From the NCBI GenBank assembly GCA_029881435.1, contig JAOUMR010000021.1:1-38127 (forward strand): DNA of 38,127 nt, written 5' to 3'. Within the stretch, counting starts at the first letter, position 1; every line of letters begins with the position of its first letter. The translations under genes and the position numbers were made by a program. The notes below the pieces were generated by a model. The model saw nothing but the letters and a program-made list of their open reading frames with translations. It was not told the DNA's origin and did no database searches. Below, piece after piece: positions 9,615-20,196 of the stretch. Source of the DNA: Nitrospira sp. (GTDB lineage: Bacteria > Nitrospirota > Nitrospiria > Nitrospirales > Nitrospiraceae).

Positions 9615-10337
9615 TTAGGCGATCGTGGCTGCCAGATCGCTTACGATGTTGTTGATGTAGGTCCGGTTTGACAGTAAATCGCGCATGTGTTTTAAGACTC
9701 GATCCCGCTCTGCCCTTGCCTGGCTCGTGGCTTCTTCTCTGTCCTGTAGCTGATCCCAGTCCGTAAAAAGCTGCCGAAGTTGCGACTCCATGTCTTCACG
9801 GCGACCTTCCAATGTCTGTTGCTCGGTCTGAAGCGTGGCGCGAAGCCGATGACCTTGCTCCGAATCGCGATCCGAGGCTCTGTACTCCTCCAAGGTCTCT
9901 TGTAGTTCCAGGATTTCCTCGAAGAGGTCGGCGGGAGGAGACGTTCGGATATCCTTGACTGAACCGGCTTCGAGGGCCAGGAGGTATTCCGCTCGTTGTA
10001 TAGGATCACGAAGCGTCCGGTACGCTGTATTGAGCACGGCGGCGTTGCTGAGGCTGATCGTTTGTTCCGTCGGACTCTTGGTTTGATAAAAATCAGGATG
10101 AAAGGCACGGCTCAATTCATAGAATTTGGCTTCCAGCTTTTTGGGGTCTAACGTGAGTCGCCGTGGGACTCCGAGGCAGGTGAAGTAGTCGGCGTCTTTC
10201 GAAACCGGCTGGACTTTCACGCATCGCTCGCAGAAGTATTCCCCCGACATCTCGGATTGACAATGCCAGCACATGCTTCTGGCCATCTGCAGCTGGCGGC
10301 GGGTCTCCGAATGGGGAGAGGATTGATCGTTAGCCAT
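9615..10337 (-). CDS. hscB: HscB, J-domain co-chaperone with N-terminal tetracysteine
   Basis: 240-aa type III J-protein that delivers IscU to HscA and stimulates its ATPase. The J domain (about 50-118) has the His79-Pro80-Asp81 motif in 'SRAFHPDFYQ'. The C-terminal three-helix domain (about 130-235) binds IscU. It differs from the ~170-aa enterobacterial HscB by an extra N-terminal segment with four cysteines as two CxxC pairs (Cys23/26 and Cys36/39), separated by nine residues, the pattern of a small zinc-binding or rubredoxin-like knuckle. Human HSCB has a similar N-terminal tetracysteine. The gene sits between iscA and hscA. Confidence 0.92.
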   Translation of the reverse strand: MANDQSSPHSETRRQLQMARSMCWHCQSEMSGEYFCERCVKVQPVSKDADYFTCLGVPRRLTLDPKKLEAKFYELSRAFHPDFYQTKSPTEQTISLSNAAVLNTAYRTLRDPIQRAEYLLALEAGSVKDIRTSPPADLFEEILELQETLEEYRASDRDSEQGHRLRATLQTEQQTLEGRREDMESQLRQLFTDWDQLQDREEATSQARAERDRVLKHMRDLLSNRTYINNIVSDLAATIA

Positions 10338-11220: not shown

Positions 11221-12438
11221 CTAATGCGCGGCCCATTGAACGGACTTCAGGTCCACGCCCTCTTTCGCCATCTCATAGAGCGGGGACATTTCTCGTAACC
11301 TGGTGACTACCTCAATAACCTTCTTGATCGTATAGTCAATCTCTTCATCGGTATTGAAACGGCCCAAGCCGAAGCGGATCGAAGAGTGAGCGAGCTCCGT
11401 CCCGACGCCGAGTGCGCGCAACACATAGGAAGGTTCCAGTGTGGCCGACGTGCAGGCCGAACCGGACGACAGCGCGATGTCTTTCATGCCCATGAGCAGC
11501 GACTCGCCTTCGACGTAGGCAAACGAAATGTTGAGGTTGCCCGGCAGACGGTTCGTCGGATGGCCATTGAGATAACTTTCTTCGAGCGCCGCCATGATGT
11601 CGGCCTGCAGGTGGTCGCGCATCTTGCTCAACTTCGCGGCTTCCGATGTCATCTCCTGCTCGCAGATTTCACAGGCCTTTCCAAATCCCACGATCAACGG
11701 GACCGGTAAGGTGCCGGACCGCATGCCACGTTCATGCCCTCCTCCGTCCATCTGGGCCGCGATTCGAACGCGAGGGTTCCTCTTTCTCACGTAAAGTGCA
11801 CCGACTCCCTTGGGACCGTAGATCTTGTGCGATGTGAAAGACATGAGATCAATGCCCATGGCTTGTACATCGACGGGAATCTTGCCGACGCCCTGCGTGG
11901 CATCGCAGTGAAACAGGATCCCCTTCGCTTTCGCGATCTTGCCGATTTCCTGGACGGGATTGATCGTGCCGATCTCGTTGTTGGCCAGCATGACCGAGAT
12001 CAGGATCGTCTTATCGGTGATCGCATTCTGCACGTCCTGCGGATTCACCATGCCGAATTTATCAACCGGCAAATAGGTCACGGTCGCCAGCCCTTTGGCT
12101 TCAAGGGACTTGGCCGTATCGAGCACGGCCCGATGTTCCGTGGACGATGTGATGATGTGGGTGCCTTTCTCTTTGTACATCTCTATGACGCCCTTCAGCG
12201 CCAAGTTATCCGATTCAGTGGCACCGCTGGTGAAGACGATTTCTTTTCCGTCGGCGTTAATCAGCTTCGCAATCTGTTTCCGGGCTTGTTCCACGGCTTC
12301 TTCCGCGGCCCACCCGAAGGCGTGGTTGCGGCTGGCAGAATTGCCGAATTTCTCGACGAAATACGGCAGCATGGCTTCCAGGACTCGTGGATCCATGGGA
12401 GTGGTGGAATGGTTGTCGAGGAAAATGGGAAGCTTCAT
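11221..12438 (-). CDS. iscS: IscS, cysteine desulfurase
   Basis: 405-aa PLP enzyme that removes sulfur from L-cysteine as a persulfide and passes it to IscU. It also commonly serves tRNA thiolation. PLP is bound by Lys205 in '[20 protein letters not shown]'. The persulfide-forming Cys329 lies in the flexible loop '[21 protein letters not shown]', the long-loop (group I, IscS/Nfs1) type. N-terminal '[13 protein letters not shown]' and '[15 protein letters not shown]' complete the fold. The length matches E. coli IscS. Its ATG overlaps the iscR stop (ATGA), so translation is coupled to the regulator. Confidence 0.97.
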
Positions 12439-12908
12439 CGTTCAACTCCTTGTGCCGAGGGAGACTGAATCGTAATAAGGGGTGTGCCGCCCAGCATGTC
12501 TTCCAACGTCATGTTGTTCAGTAACTGGGCGATACTGTCTTGGACTTTCAACAGCGGTGTGCGAATGTTACAGTGATCACGTTGCATGCAAAATTCTCCC
12601 TCTTTTTCGTGAGAGCAGTCGGTGATCCCGAGCGGGCCTTCGATGCTTTCAAGGATCTGCGCGATGGTGATCTGTCCAGCGCTCCGTGCGAGGAGATAGC
12701 CTCCCTTGGGGCCGTTGTGGCTTTCGATCAGGCCGTTCTTTGAGAGCACCTGGAGGACCTTCGCCAACAATTCCAACGGAATGTTGTATTCCTCGGCGAT
12801 CTCTTTTGTATTGACCACACGGCCAGGAGTGATATCGCCGAACTGGACCGACGCGATATGCTGTAAGGCCATGAGTGCGTAATCAGCTTTTTTAGAAATC
12901 TTCAACAT
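12435..12908 (-). CDS. iscR: IscR-like Rrf2 family repressor
   Basis: 157-aa Rrf2 winged-helix regulator with the recognition region '[18 protein letters not shown] ... [13 protein letters not shown]' and the wing '[17 protein letters not shown]'. Three cysteines for a cluster are present: Cys98, Cys107 and Cys113, with spacing x8 and x5, where E. coli IscR has x5 and x5. The fourth E. coli ligand (His, three residues after the last Cys) is Arg116 here, so ligation must differ; His100 and His112 are candidates. It is the first gene of the isc operon. By analogy it should repress the operon when cluster-loaded, acting at the palindrome just upstream. A cluster-binding role is inferred. Confidence 0.93.
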
Positions 12909-12927
12909 TGCTATTGCCGAGCTTTAT

Positions 12928-12954
12928 GATCGGAGACTATAATGATCTCCGATC
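12928..12954 (-). promoter_or_regulatory. Perfect 9-9-9 palindrome upstream of iscR, probable Rrf2/IscR operator with overlapping -10
   Basis: GATCGGAGA and TCTCCGATC form perfect 9-bp arms around a 9-nt centre, ending 20 nt before the iscR ATG. On the iscR strand, TATAGT straddles the centre and downstream arm (12935-12940) and is a plausible -10 box, so a bound dimer would block the promoter. The sequence is not the E. coli type 1 IscR consensus, although the size and symmetry fit an Rrf2 dimer. Farther upstream, TCCGA and TCGGA recur around 12949-12967 as a weaker half-site pair. It lies between iscR and the divergent ferredoxin gene and could control both. Confidence 0.65.
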
Positions 12955-13042
12955 AATATGGTCGGACTAAGACTAGCACGCAGATTTCGCTGATGTCAAG
13001 GCAGGATGAGCGTTAGGCAATGGCGTAGAAAGGAATCGGTAC

Positions 13043-13459
13043 ATGGGCGGAACTAACCCTTATATTGAGAAAACGGACTATGAGCTCCCAAAAGTTTCCT
13101 ATACCCTCACATTTATCCAGCCGAACGGAGACGCGACCACCGTTACCGTCGATCCTGAAAAGCTTCCCCATGGAGACACCGGCCTCCCCGGCAGCATTCT
13201 GGACATAGCGATGGGGCACGGAGTGGATCTGGAGCATGTGTGTGGTGGGGTGTGCGCCTGTTCAACCTGCCACGTCTTGGTGAAGCAGGGGCTGGAATCT
13301 TGTAATGAAGGCACGGACGATGAATACGATCAGTTGGACGAGGCGCCCATGACGACACTGCAGTCCCGGTTAGGTTGCCAATGTGTGCCCAACGGAACGA
13401 AGGATGTCGTCGTTGCGATCCCCGCCGTCAACAAGAATCTCGTTCGAGAGGCGCACTAA
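13043..13459 (+). CDS. fdx: Adrenodoxin-type [2Fe-2S] ferredoxin of the ISC system
   Basis: 138-aa ferredoxin that supplies electrons for cluster assembly on IscU. The ligands follow the adrenodoxin pattern C-x5-C-x2-C ... C: Cys67, Cys73, Cys76 ('CGGVCACSTCHV') and Cys112 ('SRLGCQCVPNG'). Extra cysteines occur at 71, 87 and 114. The acidic helix 'TDDEYDQLDEAP' is the usual partner-binding patch. An N-terminal leader of about 18 residues precedes the fold. AAAGGA lies 10 nt before the ATG. In Proteobacteria fdx lies inside the isc operon; here it is divergent from iscR and shares the upstream region holding the palindrome. Confidence 0.93.
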   Translation: MGGTNPYIEKTDYELPKVSYTLTFIQPNGDATTVTVDPEKLPHGDTGLPGSILDIAMGHGVDLEHVCGGVCACSTCHVLVKQGLESCNEGTDDEYDQLDEAPMTTLQSRLGCQCVPNGTKDVVVAIPAVNKNLVREAH

Positions 13460-16110: not shown

Positions 16111-16250
16111 GTTCGACGCCAGCCCAATCGGCAAGTAACGCCTCACGTCTTACAACTCTCTGACAGGTGATTTCCTATAGGGAAAGGGGTATTCTTCAGC
16201 CGCAGGCGAAGAGATCAGAGTATTTCATTGCGTTCACCATCATCACGCAA

Positions 16251-18650
16251 ATGAGCCAACCCGAAGCCTTCTCCCGCATTCTCATCGACAAAGCGTTAGA
16301 GTTAAGCGGATGGGATTTGCTGAATCCCCAGCAGATCCAGTTTGAACAGCATACGGAGACCGGGCGAGCGGATTATCTGCTTAAAGATAGCTTCGGTCGC
16401 GTGCTCTGTGTGTTGGAAGCGAAGCGCGAAGGCCTTGATCCGTACGACGCCAAAGAGCAGGCTCGCGGTTACGCTGAACAACTCAATGCCCCGCTTATCA
16501 TTCTGTCCAACGGCCGTGAACATTGGTTTTGGAACTATGAGCGAGCCGTTCAGCGCGACGCCTACCGCATCGAGCGGCTTCCCTCGCGTGACGATCTAGA
16601 ACGAGCCCGGCTCAAGAACCTTCAGCCGCCGCGTCCCCTCGGAAGCGAAGTCATCACACCCGAGTATCTCCGCCAGCTCAAACACGACCTAACGCTGAGA
16701 CGATACCAGATTCGGGCGATGGACGAAGTCGCCCGGCTGTTCGATACCCAAGGACTGCGGAAGTTTCTCCTCGAAATGGCCACGGGAACCGGCAAGACGC
16801 TGCTCTGCGCCGCGCTCATTCGCCGCTTTCTGATGAGCCGAAACGCCGAGCGCGTCCTGTTCATCGTGGACCGTATCGAACTCGCGAGGCAGACCATCGA
16901 AGACTTTGCCATCGTCTTACCGGAGTTCAAACCGGTGATCTACAAGACCGCTCGCCGGACTGGTGAGCTGCTTGGGTCGTCCGTCGTGATCGCGACCATT
17001 CAATCGCTGCTGACCGACCGCCGCTATCGGGATGAGTTCACACCGTTCTATTTCGACCTCGTCATCAACGATGAAGCCCATCGGTCGATCTATGGCGATG
17101 CCCGCGAAGTCGTCCAATTTTTCCAGGCCACACGTATCGGTCTCACGGCGACGCCCAAGGCCTATCTCAAGAATGTAGATATTGAGAAGTTGGCCGAGGA
17201 GAACCCCAAGGCGCTGGAGGCCCGTCAGTTGCGCGACACCTACCATTACTTCGGCTGCAAGCCAGGCTTCCCGACATTCCGGTACGACATCATCGATGCC
17301 GTGAAGGACCCGGAAGGTCCGTTCCTCTGTCTGCCCAAGATTTTCGATTTCCGCTCGGATATCACGACCAAGGCGCTGGCGGAATCGGGTTGGGCGGTCG
17401 TCATCAATGAGCAGGAGGAAAGCTTCAAGATTCAGGATCTGGAAAAGAAGATCTTTACGCCAACCCGCAACCGCCTCATGTGCGAAGCCTTTCTGAAGGA
17501 AGCGCAGAAAGATCCGGCAGGGGCCATCGGCAAGTCCATTGTGTTTGCTGTGAACCAGACACATGCCACCAATCTCACGAAAATATTCAACGAGCTACAG
17601 CCCGGCATCGCACTGACGATTACCTCGCGAATCCCCGAGGCATCGGTGCTGGCGAAAGAGTTTCGTGACGGCAAACGGTCCGAGCGCATCGCGGTCTCCG
17701 TGGACATGCTCTCGACCGGCTACAATTGCCGCGACGCACTGAACATCGGTCTCTTTCGTCCGGTGTTTTCGCCGACGGAATATATTCAGATCAAAGGCCG
17801 GGGAACTCGACGCTATACCTTCATGATCGGCCACACCGCTTATGAGAAGTCCTGTTTCTACCTCCTCGACTTCTGCGCCGTCGCCGAATACTTCGAGGAC
17901 CAATACGATTACTCGGTCCCGCTGAAGGTGCCGCGTGAAAAGAAATCCTCCGTCGCAACGGACTCGTATACCCAGGGCGATGGCCCTCACAGCGTTGCTG
18001 CAGAAGGCCAATCAGAGCCTCCGGCACGGGAAAAACCATCGCGCGTCATCCCGATCTGGGAGGGGATCGATACCCTCGTGAGCCAGGAGGTTCGTATTGT
18101 CGGCCCCAATGGCGAGAAGGTCGATATTATGACGTTTCGTGGCGGCTACGAGCGGGACATCAAGGAATTCGTTGCGCAGACACCCATACTTAAAGCAGCC
18201 GTGGAAGCCGAGGACGACGACGCCATCGAAACCATTCTCAACGAGCGGTTCTACCATCGCCCGGAGATGTATTATTCGCCGGACAAGCTTATTGTCTCCT
18301 ATGGCGTGCCGGCGACCACACCGGCCTTTGTTTATCATGCGCTCGGGCGCAAGCCGCTCCCCACGCGCGACGCCATCGTGACCGACACGGTCGATTCCAT
18401 TGCCGCCCGCTTCAACCTCCGGTACAGCGAGCAGAAGTGGGTAGTCGCCACCGCACAATTGCTGGCCGAAGATTCTACAGCGCTGCATCGATTCATGAGT
18501 GGGGATATGACGTTGTTTACCGCCAGCCAGTTTAATCAGCTTGGCGGCGTCTCTGCGCTAGCCCGCTTTGAAGATCGTGAACAAGTGTTCGAAGCCTTGC
18601 GCCAGTCCACGCTTGTCAGGCAATCATTGATCGCAATATCACCCTCATAA
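16251..18650 (+). CDS. hsdR: Type I restriction enzyme R subunit (EcoEI-like)
   Basis: About 799-aa motor and nuclease subunit of a type I R-M system, which cleaves DNA lacking the self methylation after ATP-driven translocation. The N-terminal nuclease has the PD-(D/E)xK pattern 'GRADYLLKDSFGRVLCVLEAKR'. Helicase motifs are Walker A 'MATGTGKTLLC' (Lys182), 'NDEAHRS' (Asp274-His277), 'GLTATPKAY' and 'YIQIKGRGTRR'. The C-terminal part fits the EcoEI-type HsdR tail. The ATG of 'MSQPEAFSR' is preferred from the homology start. A GTG at 16167 would add 28 residues of non-homologous sequence. Neither start has a strong Shine-Dalgarno. It is first in the hsdR-M-S order. Confidence 0.93.
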   Translation: MSQPEAFSRILIDKALELSGWDLLNPQQIQFEQHTETGRADYLLKDSFGRVLCVLEAKREGLDPYDAKEQARGYAEQLNAPLIILSNGREHWFWNYERAVQRDAYRIERLPSRDDLERARLKNLQPPRPLGSEVITPEYLRQLKHDLTLRRYQIRAMDEVARLFDTQGLRKFLLEMATGTGKTLLCAALIRRFLMSRNAERVLFIVDRIELARQTIEDFAIVLPEFKPVIYKTARRTGELLGSSVVIATIQSLLTDRRYRDEFTPFYFDLVINDEAHRSIYGDAREVVQFFQATRIGLTATPKAYLKNVDIEKLAEENPKALEARQLRDTYHYFGCKPGFPTFRYDIIDAVKDPEGPFLCLPKIFDFRSDITTKALAESGWAVVINEQEESFKIQDLEKKIFTPTRNRLMCEAFLKEAQKDPAGAIGKSIVFAVNQTHATNLTKIFNELQPGIALTITSRIPEASVLAKEFRDGKRSERIAVSVDMLSTGYNCRDALNIGLFRPVFSPTEYIQIKGRGTRRYTFMIGHTAYEKSCFYLLDFCAVAEYFEDQYDYSVPLKVPREKKSSVATDSYTQGDGPHSVAAEGQSEPPAREKPSRVIPIWEGIDTLVSQEVRIVGPNGEKVDIMTFRGGYERDIKEFVAQTPILKAAVEAEDDDAIETILNERFYHRPEMYYSPDKLIVSYGVPATTPAFVYHALGRKPLPTRDAIVTDTVDSIAARFNLRYSEQKWVVATAQLLAEDSTALHRFMSGDMTLFTASQFNQLGGVSALARFEDREQVFEALRQSTLVRQSLIAISPS

Positions 18651-18669
18651 TCATGTGTTAGGACCATCC

Positions 18670-20196
18670 ATGCGCACGCCTCCTGTACAGTCCGATTCCG
18701 TCGCCGCCCAGGCCCTCGCCACGCCGTCGAATTTCTTTTCTTCCGGCCTCCGGCAAAAGGTCGATCAGCTCATGAACATCCTCTGGGCCGGGGGCGTGAA
18801 CAATCCGATGGATTCCATCGAGCAGATTTCCTATCTGCTATTCCTGCGTCTGCTGACAGAGAAGGACAATGCCCTCGCCAGCCTCGACAAGAAATATGTC
18901 TGCATCTTCTCCGGCAAGTGGGCCAAATATGCCTGGGGTAACTTCGTCACGCTGACCGGCGATCAGATGTTCAACGCCGTCCGCGACGCCATCGAAAAAC
19001 TGCACGAGCTGCCCGGTCTGACCGACACGGGCAAGCTGCTGTTTAGCCGCGCCACGCTCAAGATTTACGACCGCCCGACCCTCCGCGCCGTCGTGCAAGC
19101 CATCCATAGCATGGACCTGTCCGCCCATGACGGCCACGACCTGAAGGGCGACATGTATGAGTATCTTTTGAGTAAGCTGTCGGCCTCCGGCACCAACGGC
19201 CAATTCCGCACCCCGCGCCACATCATTGACCTGATCGTGGCGCTTGTGAATCCGCAACCGAACCATCGGATTTGCGACCCGGCCTGTGGCACCGCGGGCT
19301 TCCTCATCTCTGCCTTCACCCACATTTTGCGGCAACACACGAAACCGGCTGACCTGAAGCAGGGGCTGGTGGACGGCGGGCTTCTCAAAACGGCGCAATG
19401 GAAGTTTCTCGAAGAGCAGGCCTTCACCGGCTTCGACAACGACGCCAATATGGTGAAGATCGCTATTTTGAACCTCTATCTTCACCAGTTGGAAAAAGCG
19501 CGCGTCTCCATGCTGAACCCGCTCACCACCGGCTTCGGTGGCGCCTATCCGGGCCAGCAGTTCGACATCATCCTCGCCAACCCGCCGTTTGCCGGAAAGG
19601 TGCAGGATGAAAGCATCCTGGCCGACCTCAACTACAAGTTGAACACTCGCGCGACAGAACTGCTGTTTCTCAAATGGTTCATCGATCATCTTGCGCCTGG
19701 GGGACGGGCTGGCGTCATCGTGCCCAACGGCGTGCTCTTCGGCTCGACGAATGCCGCCACCAGCCTGCGCGAATTGCTCCTGACCGAGTGCGACCTGCAA
19801 GCGGTGATCAATCTGCCGAGCGGTGTGTTCAAGCCCTATTCCGGCGTCGGCACCGCCGCGCTGATTTTTGAGAAGGGCAAGAAGACAGAGAGTGTCTGGT
19901 ACTACGACCTCACCGCCGACAGCTACAGCCTCGACGACAAGCGCACGCCGATTGAGGCCAATGACATTCCCGACGCGCTGGCCAAATGGCCGAACCGCGA
20001 GGAAGGCCAGAACAGCTACCGGGTAGCAATTGAGAAGATTCGGGAGAATGACTGGAGCCTCGCAGCAGGACGTTACAAGCCCGTGACAGCGGAACCGGTG
20101 CATCACGACGACCCCCGGCGCATCGTCGCCGAAGTGCTGACTCTTGAAGCGCGCATCACAGAGAAGCTTACCCGTTTGCAGGGTATGGTAGAGTAG
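18670..20196 (+). CDS. hsdM: Type I modification methyltransferase subunit
   Basis: 508-aa N6-adenine methyltransferase subunit that with HsdS methylates and recognises the target site. The N-terminal helical domain ('LRQKVDQLMNILWAGG', 'QISYLLFLRLLTEKD') is followed by the catalytic Rossmann domain with the SAM motif 'DPACGTAGFLISAF' (Asp203) and the catalytic Asn304-Pro-Pro-Phe307. The chosen ATG has TTAGGA 7 nt upstream. A GTG at 18655 is a weaker alternative. It starts 19 nt after hsdR. Unusually, hsdS does not follow directly: two toxin-antitoxin-type genes lie between them. Confidence 0.96.
   Translation: MRTPPVQSDSVAAQALATPSNFFSSGLRQKVDQLMNILWAGGVNNPMDSIEQISYLLFLRLLTEKDNALASLDKKYVCIFSGKWAKYAWGNFVTLTGDQMFNAVRDAIEKLHELPGLTDTGKLLFSRATLKIYDRPTLRAVVQAIHSMDLSAHDGHDLKGDMYEYLLSKLSASGTNGQFRTPRHIIDLIVALVNPQPNHRICDPACGTAGFLISAFTHILRQHTKPADLKQGLVDGGLLKTAQWKFLEEQAFTGFDNDANMVKIAILNLYLHQLEKARVSMLNPLTTGFGGAYPGQQFDIILANPPFAGKVQDESILADLNYKLNTRATELLFLKWFIDHLAPGGRAGVIVPNGVLFGSTNAATSLRELLLTECDLQAVINLPSGVFKPYSGVGTAALIFEKGKKTESVWYYDLTADSYSLDDKRTPIEANDIPDALAKWPNREEGQNSYRVAIEKIRENDWSLAAGRYKPVTAEPVHHDDPRRIVAEVLTLEARITEKLTRLQGMVE

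Follow-up and report, generated by a model that had tools for sequence, protein, structure and literature searches.

The window (the whole 38,127-nucleotide stretch of Nitrospira DNA analysed here) contains an isc cluster in the gene order iscR-iscS-iscU-iscA-hscB-hscA, together with a divergent ferredoxin gene, fdx. Models for IscS, IscU and HscA score above their cut-offs, while the iscA-like product passes a subfamily cut-off only and the HscB-like product falls below. For fdx the best NCBIfam model is fdx_isc, at 82.2 of 132.1 bits and hence below its cut-off. The hscB-like J-protein (9615-10337, minus strand) carries an N-terminal CWHC...CERC segment; only its DnaJ domain is above the Pfam cut-off, the HscB models being below theirs. 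Elsewhere in the window, two adjoining plus-strand genes at 16167-20196 resemble subunits R and M of type I restriction systems (EcoAI-like and HsdM/MAD2-like), with every model score under its cut-off. The features around the iscR-fdx interval, with promoters and operator units as predicted, are as follows.

11221-12438, minus strand: iscS, the next gene after iscR, with one model above cut-off
12435-12908, minus strand: iscR-like Rrf2 regulator, 157 aa
12914-12919, plus strand: -35 element of the predicted fdx promoter, TTGCCG
12919-12931, minus strand: candidate operator unit 3, GATC-ATAAA-GCTC, matching GAYY-N5-RRTC at 7/8 in the window
12927-12955, no strand: inverted repeat with perfect 10-bp arms and a 9-bp spacer
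12935-12947, minus strand: candidate operator unit 2, GATC-ATTAT-AGTC, 8/8, the palindrome centre, containing the fdx -10 element
12938-12943, plus strand: -10 element of the predicted fdx promoter, TATAAT, within unit 2
12951-12963, minus strand: candidate operator unit 1, GACC-ATATT-GATC, 8/8 match to GAYY-N5-RRTC
12970-12978, minus strand: extended -10 element of the predicted iscR promoter, TGCTAGTCT, its TG 15 nt before unit 1
12994-12999, minus strand: -35 element of the predicted iscR promoter, TTGACA
13043-13459, plus strand: divergent [2Fe-2S] ferredoxin of the ISC type (fdx)

The first-pass annotation had described a perfect 27-bp palindrome, GATCGGAGA-N9-TCTCCGATC, at 12928-12954. 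Its arms are indeed perfect and lie between the iscR-like gene, with the isc operon, and divergent fdx; they extend one base further on each side, to 10 bp, but the 9-bp centre is only partly symmetrical, so that the description holds for the arms and not for the whole. The repeat is single-copy in its own 3.72-Mb genome in a search allowing up to 3 mismatches. Five perfect 9-nt inverted repeats with spacers of up to 20 are present in the window, two of them being the 12928-12954 site, and ten Markov-randomised windows held from 1 to 20 such repeats each. Since a 9-nt inverted repeat is not rare in such a window, the case rests on conservation and comparison, and it is on conservation, not on the repeat alone, that we rejected a chance repeat.

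We compared the DNA upstream of the iscR-like gene in 35 genomes of the genus, including the present one. Conservation of the palindrome in close relatives, which had been anticipated, is borne out in that the exact arms are kept in 22 of the 35 genomes and a 25-nt core in 31. A three-unit array with 16-bp pitch, however, is present in all 35; every unit matches at 8/8 in 31 genomes, and the third unit matches at 7/8 in the other four. The inverted repeat is therefore better read as the centre of three GAYY-N5-RRTC units at 16-bp pitch. Its components are unit 2, the GGA/TCC linkers on either side and the adjoining half of each outer unit; it seems symmetrical because unit 2 is itself palindromic and is flanked by GGA...TCC and by those halves of units 1 and 3.

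The array reaches well beyond the genus. In a survey of 148 genomes, an ortholog of the regulator was found at E 1e-20 or better in 77, of which 42 still lacked DNA in the comparison; 29 of these were added, and the remaining 13 (G066 and twelve of family f16) stand outside the count by genus, as do loci L160-L165 (<40% identity) and loci with <150 bp upstream. The count takes one representative for each of 34 genera, with an identity of 40% or more and no less than 150 bp of upstream DNA; representatives were the lowest locus identifiers and were not picked by score, and L122 comes from the same genome as L033. Upstream of the orthologous iscR-like gene, 31 of the 34 genera carry a pair of units that scores 15/16 or higher at a pitch of exactly 16. 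At other spacings between 13 and 40 such a pair is found in 0-3 genera, apart from spacing 32, two pitches, at which it occurs in 13. First-order Markov sequences gave a mean of 0.022 genera and a maximum of 1 over 500 rounds. Representatives g7, g19 and g39 reach 14/16 only, although another g39 locus, L152, reaches 15/16. Moreover, no array is seen at the six loci (L160-L165) whose regulator is <40% identical, and the five regulators read among these six have a different recognition helix. The array thus accompanies one Rrf2 clade through the phylum, in agreement with the earlier proposal of a regulatory site for the encoded Rrf2 protein that is common to isc and fdx.

A separate search for the array with A/T-restricted spacers found it in 46 of 198 phylum genomes, at some places other than iscR, and in the reversed control it was absent among the matches listed. 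G210 and G226, two further genera found by the pattern alone, are iscR loci too. Among the other exact arrays, G138:C188 is a second contig with iscR, G179:C10 lies inside a coding frame, and G069:C14 is an intergenic stretch with no recognised Fe-S gene. In addition, a scan of public contigs gave at least 80 loci titled Nitrospira, Nitrospirae or Nitrospiraceae, two of them 'Nitrosospira'. The regulator genes of those two (L188 and L237, titled 'uncultured Nitrosospira') are 92% and 77% identical to the Nitrospira one, and the titles look wrong. Of the suggestion that the operator is lineage-specific, what stands is the fdx promoter inside the array; the array itself is spread through the phylum.

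These comparisons bear on the possibility that the site is one long operator, a palindrome of about 27-29 bp centred on unit 2 that one dimer would occupy. In its favour, 31 of the 35 genomes of the genus share an unchanged 25-nt core, which is better conserved than the outer spacers; that core also holds the fdx -10 element, however, which accounts for the extra conservation. At the two outermost positions of the right arm the genomes differ (TC in 24, CT in 4, TT in 3, TA in 2, CC in 1 and CA in 1 of 35), mostly among pyrimidines, as GAYY predicts. In other families, moreover, the pitch is still 16 bp although the linkers read TCC, GCC or TGC and the long palindrome is lost. The conserved feature is consequently the pitch and not arm identity, and we consider a single palindromic unit, as first suggested, to be unlikely.

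The array occupies a defined place relative to two predicted promoters. The predicted iscR promoter consists, on the minus strand, of TTGACA (12999-12994), TG (12978-12977) and TAGTCT (12975-12970), and unit 1 runs leftward from 12963, its first minus-strand base being the predicted +1 of iscR. The -10 element in the window, TAGTCT, is poor, and a promoter consensus scan listed nothing on this strand. TTGAC-N15/16-TGnTA is found in 30 of the 34 representatives; of these 30, 29 also have a unit matching at 7/8 or better whose start lies 15-16 nt past the TG, at about +1. On the plus strand, TTGCCG-N18-TATAAT matches the promoter consensus at 10/12, the scan giving one weaker site besides. The -10 box overlapped by the repeat had been assigned to iscR, but TATAAT at 12938-12943 points toward fdx, the iscR promoter lying further upstream; as a result, the two promoters face each other across the array. 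Because TTGCCG-N18-TATAAT is present in 61 of the 63 family loci (62 genomes) and both elements are absent in the other two (L136 and L137), co-control of isc and fdx is well supported as a prediction from these loci, and the sharing of the predicted site by isc and fdx, put forward in the first-pass annotation, agrees with the conservation of fdx promoter elements inside the array. Sequence comparison thus shows that the array exists, that it has this pitch, that it accompanies the regulator clade and that its place relative to both predicted promoters is fixed.

The arrangement of fdx differs among families. Among the loci of the family listed, the gene is divergent in all but L006, where the contig stops before it would be reached, and 12 of 12 loci in family f3 have it divergent too. 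Nine loci of families f2 and f4 showed no divergent fdx; in two of the nine, fdx is on the same strand, further upstream. In several loci of family f3 (L037-L048), the array lies directly upstream of the -35 element, with one weaker unit near +1, and the position of the array relative to the promoter seems to shift between families.

Given that the array lies downstream of the predicted iscR +1, an RNA hairpin in the iscR leader, acting as an attenuator or as a stability or translation element, also has to be considered. The leader in the window folds at -21.9 kcal/mol (z -4.9), and iscR seems, by eye, to lack a clear ribosome-binding site in its own genus. Leaders of three other genera, however, give z values of -1.9, -0.2 and -1.9, and in the 63 family loci the inner pairs barely vary whereas the outer ones break instead of compensating, with A opposite C at +/-12 in 24 of the 63. 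The leader also shows no terminator-like site and no Rfam family over its gathering score. We therefore disfavour an RNA element, which we regard as very unlikely. Ahead of the iscR ATG, the window carries at 12909-12920 a conserved GGCAATAG, which is the reverse of the fdx -35 element; in L136 and L137, which have no fdx promoter, GGAGG stands before iscR instead.

The regulator passes the Rrf2 superfamily models (TIGR00738, 107.1 of 73.3 bits; PF02082, 117.7 of 30) and falls below the IscR equivalog cut-offs (TIGR02010, 68.3 of 207.55 bits; NF008110, 57.9 of 275). Its nearest equivalog, suf_reg_Xantho (TIGR02944), gives 88.4 of 110.65, also below cut-off. Residues D9, C98, C107 and C113 and the helix residues P44, E46, A49 and K50 are invariant in 20 aligned orthologs. 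Ser40, Glu43, Gln44 and His107 of E. coli IscR align with Glu46, Ala49, Lys50 and Arg116; the three cysteines are present, and the arginine at the position of the His107 ligand is likewise invariant in the 20 orthologs. We read the protein as RisR-like rather than as IscR proper. That the site is bound by either of the other two Rrf2 proteins encoded in the genome is very unlikely. Three Rrf2 genes do lie above the family cut-off, but the 3.2 and 3.5 kb surrounding the other two genes contain no pair of units at pitch 16 that scores 15/16 or better, and the array is associated with the isc-linked ortholog clade and that clade's own recognition helix.

We also asked where else the motif occurs, a search upstream of Fe-S genes having been suggested as a check; the outcome was positive in family f2, a sister family, and exact arrays were confined to the isc site in the present genome. 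Seven of the eight f2 genomes (all but G038) have a second exact two-unit array away from iscR, at 1501-1529 of L070-L076 (601-629 in L073). In 7 of 7 loci it is flanked by a GDSL-lipase-like gene and an ApbC/Mrp homolog in the same direction, and a small CxxC protein comes first in six of the seven. The one f2 ApbC protein scored reaches 352.3 bits against a curated cut-off of 348. This second array predicts a second regulated operon in that family, that of the ApbC Fe-S carrier. The genome of the window has no second exact array, and two exact units occur together only at the isc site. With one mismatch allowed, 24 places were found against 4 in the reversed control; two of these are the isc array, and the other 22 have mostly G+C-rich spacers and look coding, as judged from the spacers only. 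The extended unit TCCGAYY-N5-RRTCGGA has one exact place, in the isc array; allowing up to 2 mismatches raises this to 247, compared with 96 for the control. No array is present in the stretches around the two best ApbC homologs of this genome. In G101, a 99% complete genome of the same genus, the regulator and iscS both went undetected at the thresholds used, and the isc cluster is either absent from the assembly or truly lost. The only array match in G101 is G+C-rich and, with iscS missing too, is uninformative on co-loss.

We propose, with a probability of roughly 0.85, that the site is an autoregulatory operator array through which a cluster-bearing Rrf2 protein would silence both the iscR-isc operon and divergent fdx. 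The adjacent Rrf2 protein, with its Fe-S cluster, would bind as dimers to up to three units placed 16 bp apart. Unit 1 begins at the predicted iscR-isc +1, so that a bound array would block that promoter, and units 2 and 3 cover the predicted fdx -10 and -35 elements, so that the same array would block fdx. When cluster supply falls, the protein would let go, and the isc operon and fdx would both be expressed. We infer binding by this regulator, repression as opposed to activation, the cluster as the signal, and simultaneous or cooperative filling of the units. In Leptospirillum, a member of the same phylum, iscS mRNA is reported to rise in oxidative stress and iron starvation (PMC9628965), which by analogy fits an array of holo-repressor that is relieved when clusters are short. 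The Leptospirillum iscR primer given in that source matches locus L155 at 18 of 20 letters, and family f16 is therefore probably that of Leptospirillum.

The geometry of the array bears on how it may be loaded. Type-1 sites of 25 bp set at a 16-bp pitch overlap by 9 bp, perhaps implying that the units do not fill at once. Moreover, 16 bp is about 1.5 helical turns and places neighbouring units on opposite faces, whereas 32 bp, about three turns, returns to the same face. At slightly less than even odds, we tentatively suggest a phylum-wide architecture in which dimers would sit side by side at 16 bp on alternating helix faces with overlapping footprints, loading either cooperatively or in two exclusive registers. 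In the exclusive case, one register would comprise units 1 and 3, which share a face at a distance of three turns and have TCC...GG flanks, and the other register unit 2. The divergent Nitrospira promoters could then fire within the array, toward and through each other, and the isc:fdx ratio could be set by which units fill first. If the pitch does reflect cooperative or exclusive loading, it would be a new read-out mode for an Rrf2 repressor. More generally, GAYY-N5-RRTC at pitch 16 offers a concrete operator code for Fe-S homeostasis in nitrite oxidisers, tied to a regulator clade with its own recognition helix and predicting ApbC as a second target in one family. The code probably extends to Leptospirillum relatives, for which PMC9628965 states that repression versus activation of isc by IscR remains to be determined.

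The array had been said to differ from both classes of E. coli IscR site. This holds in that the exact type-1 core, GACT-N5-AGTC, is rare, being present in 4 of the 34 representatives (null mean 0.1, maximum 2/34), and in that the type-2 consensus shows no enrichment among them (17.29 against 17.25 randomised). It does not hold for type-1 similarity as a whole, which is raised over the 34 representatives (18.44 of 25 for the full consensus against 15.42 randomised). Raised type-1 and unraised type-2 scores suggest that the array units are the same class of site as type-1. In the window itself the units match 5, 6 and 4 of the 8 letters of the strict core, and 17, 16 and 16 of the 25-bp consensus, values reached at other places in the window as well; the figure for E. 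coli PiscR is 24. An ATAYCC left flank is present in other families.

The autoregulated isc promoters of E. coli and Pseudomonas aeruginosa also have more than one relaxed GAYY-N5-RRTC unit, E. coli PiscR having GACTAAATCAGTC at 8/8 and GACCAATTTACTC at 7/8; autoregulation is predicted for the present locus. The pitch in those organisms is 25 bp compared to 16 bp here, the P. aeruginosa IscR sites being at -67 to -43 and -42 to -18 (PMC6599224). In E. coli, fdx is the last gene of iscRSUA-hscBA-fdx (PMC9628965), whereas it is divergent here. Over 146 aa, E. coli IscR and the present regulator share 25% identity, and the His ligand of the former corresponds to Arg in ours.

A second relative is NsrR. 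The operator of NsrR differs from the array described here, and the protein is described as an NO sensor with targets other than those predicted for the present regulator. In NsrR from Streptomyces coelicolor, three Cys residues and Asp8 of the other monomer are reported to bind a [4Fe-4S] cluster (PMC5411485, also for its role as NO sensor). Because Asp8 aligns with the invariant Asp9 of our regulator, a [4Fe-4S] cluster is likelier here than a [2Fe-2S] cluster.

Myxococcus xanthus RisR is the system that is closest in several respects. RisR belongs to Rrf2 group IS6, which includes Nitrospirae, and has three Cys and a [4Fe-4S] cluster; its footprint lies on GAC-N7-GTC, and the holo protein acts as a repressor (PMC9973013). 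The regulator described here shares the three Cys and the isc linkage. The exact GAC-N7-GTC core, which RisR recognises at isc and suf promoters, is present in 24 of the 34 representative upstream regions (null mean 1.3, maximum 6). The window array contains neither the exact RisR core nor the exact type-1 core, its units differing from the former at 1, 1 and 2 of 6 letters. In M. xanthus, as reported in PMC9973013, RisR covers a single palindrome with a footprint of about 30 bp at each promoter, in contrast to the 16-bp array here. Among the open-access matches listed, as judged by title and the start of the abstract, none concerned IscR operators in Nitrospira or 16-bp Rrf2 arrays. As far as these comparisons indicate, the operator unit appears to be of a known kind, whereas the arrangement of units at 16 bp, their placement at +1 and the presence of a divergent promoter within the array appear to be undescribed features.
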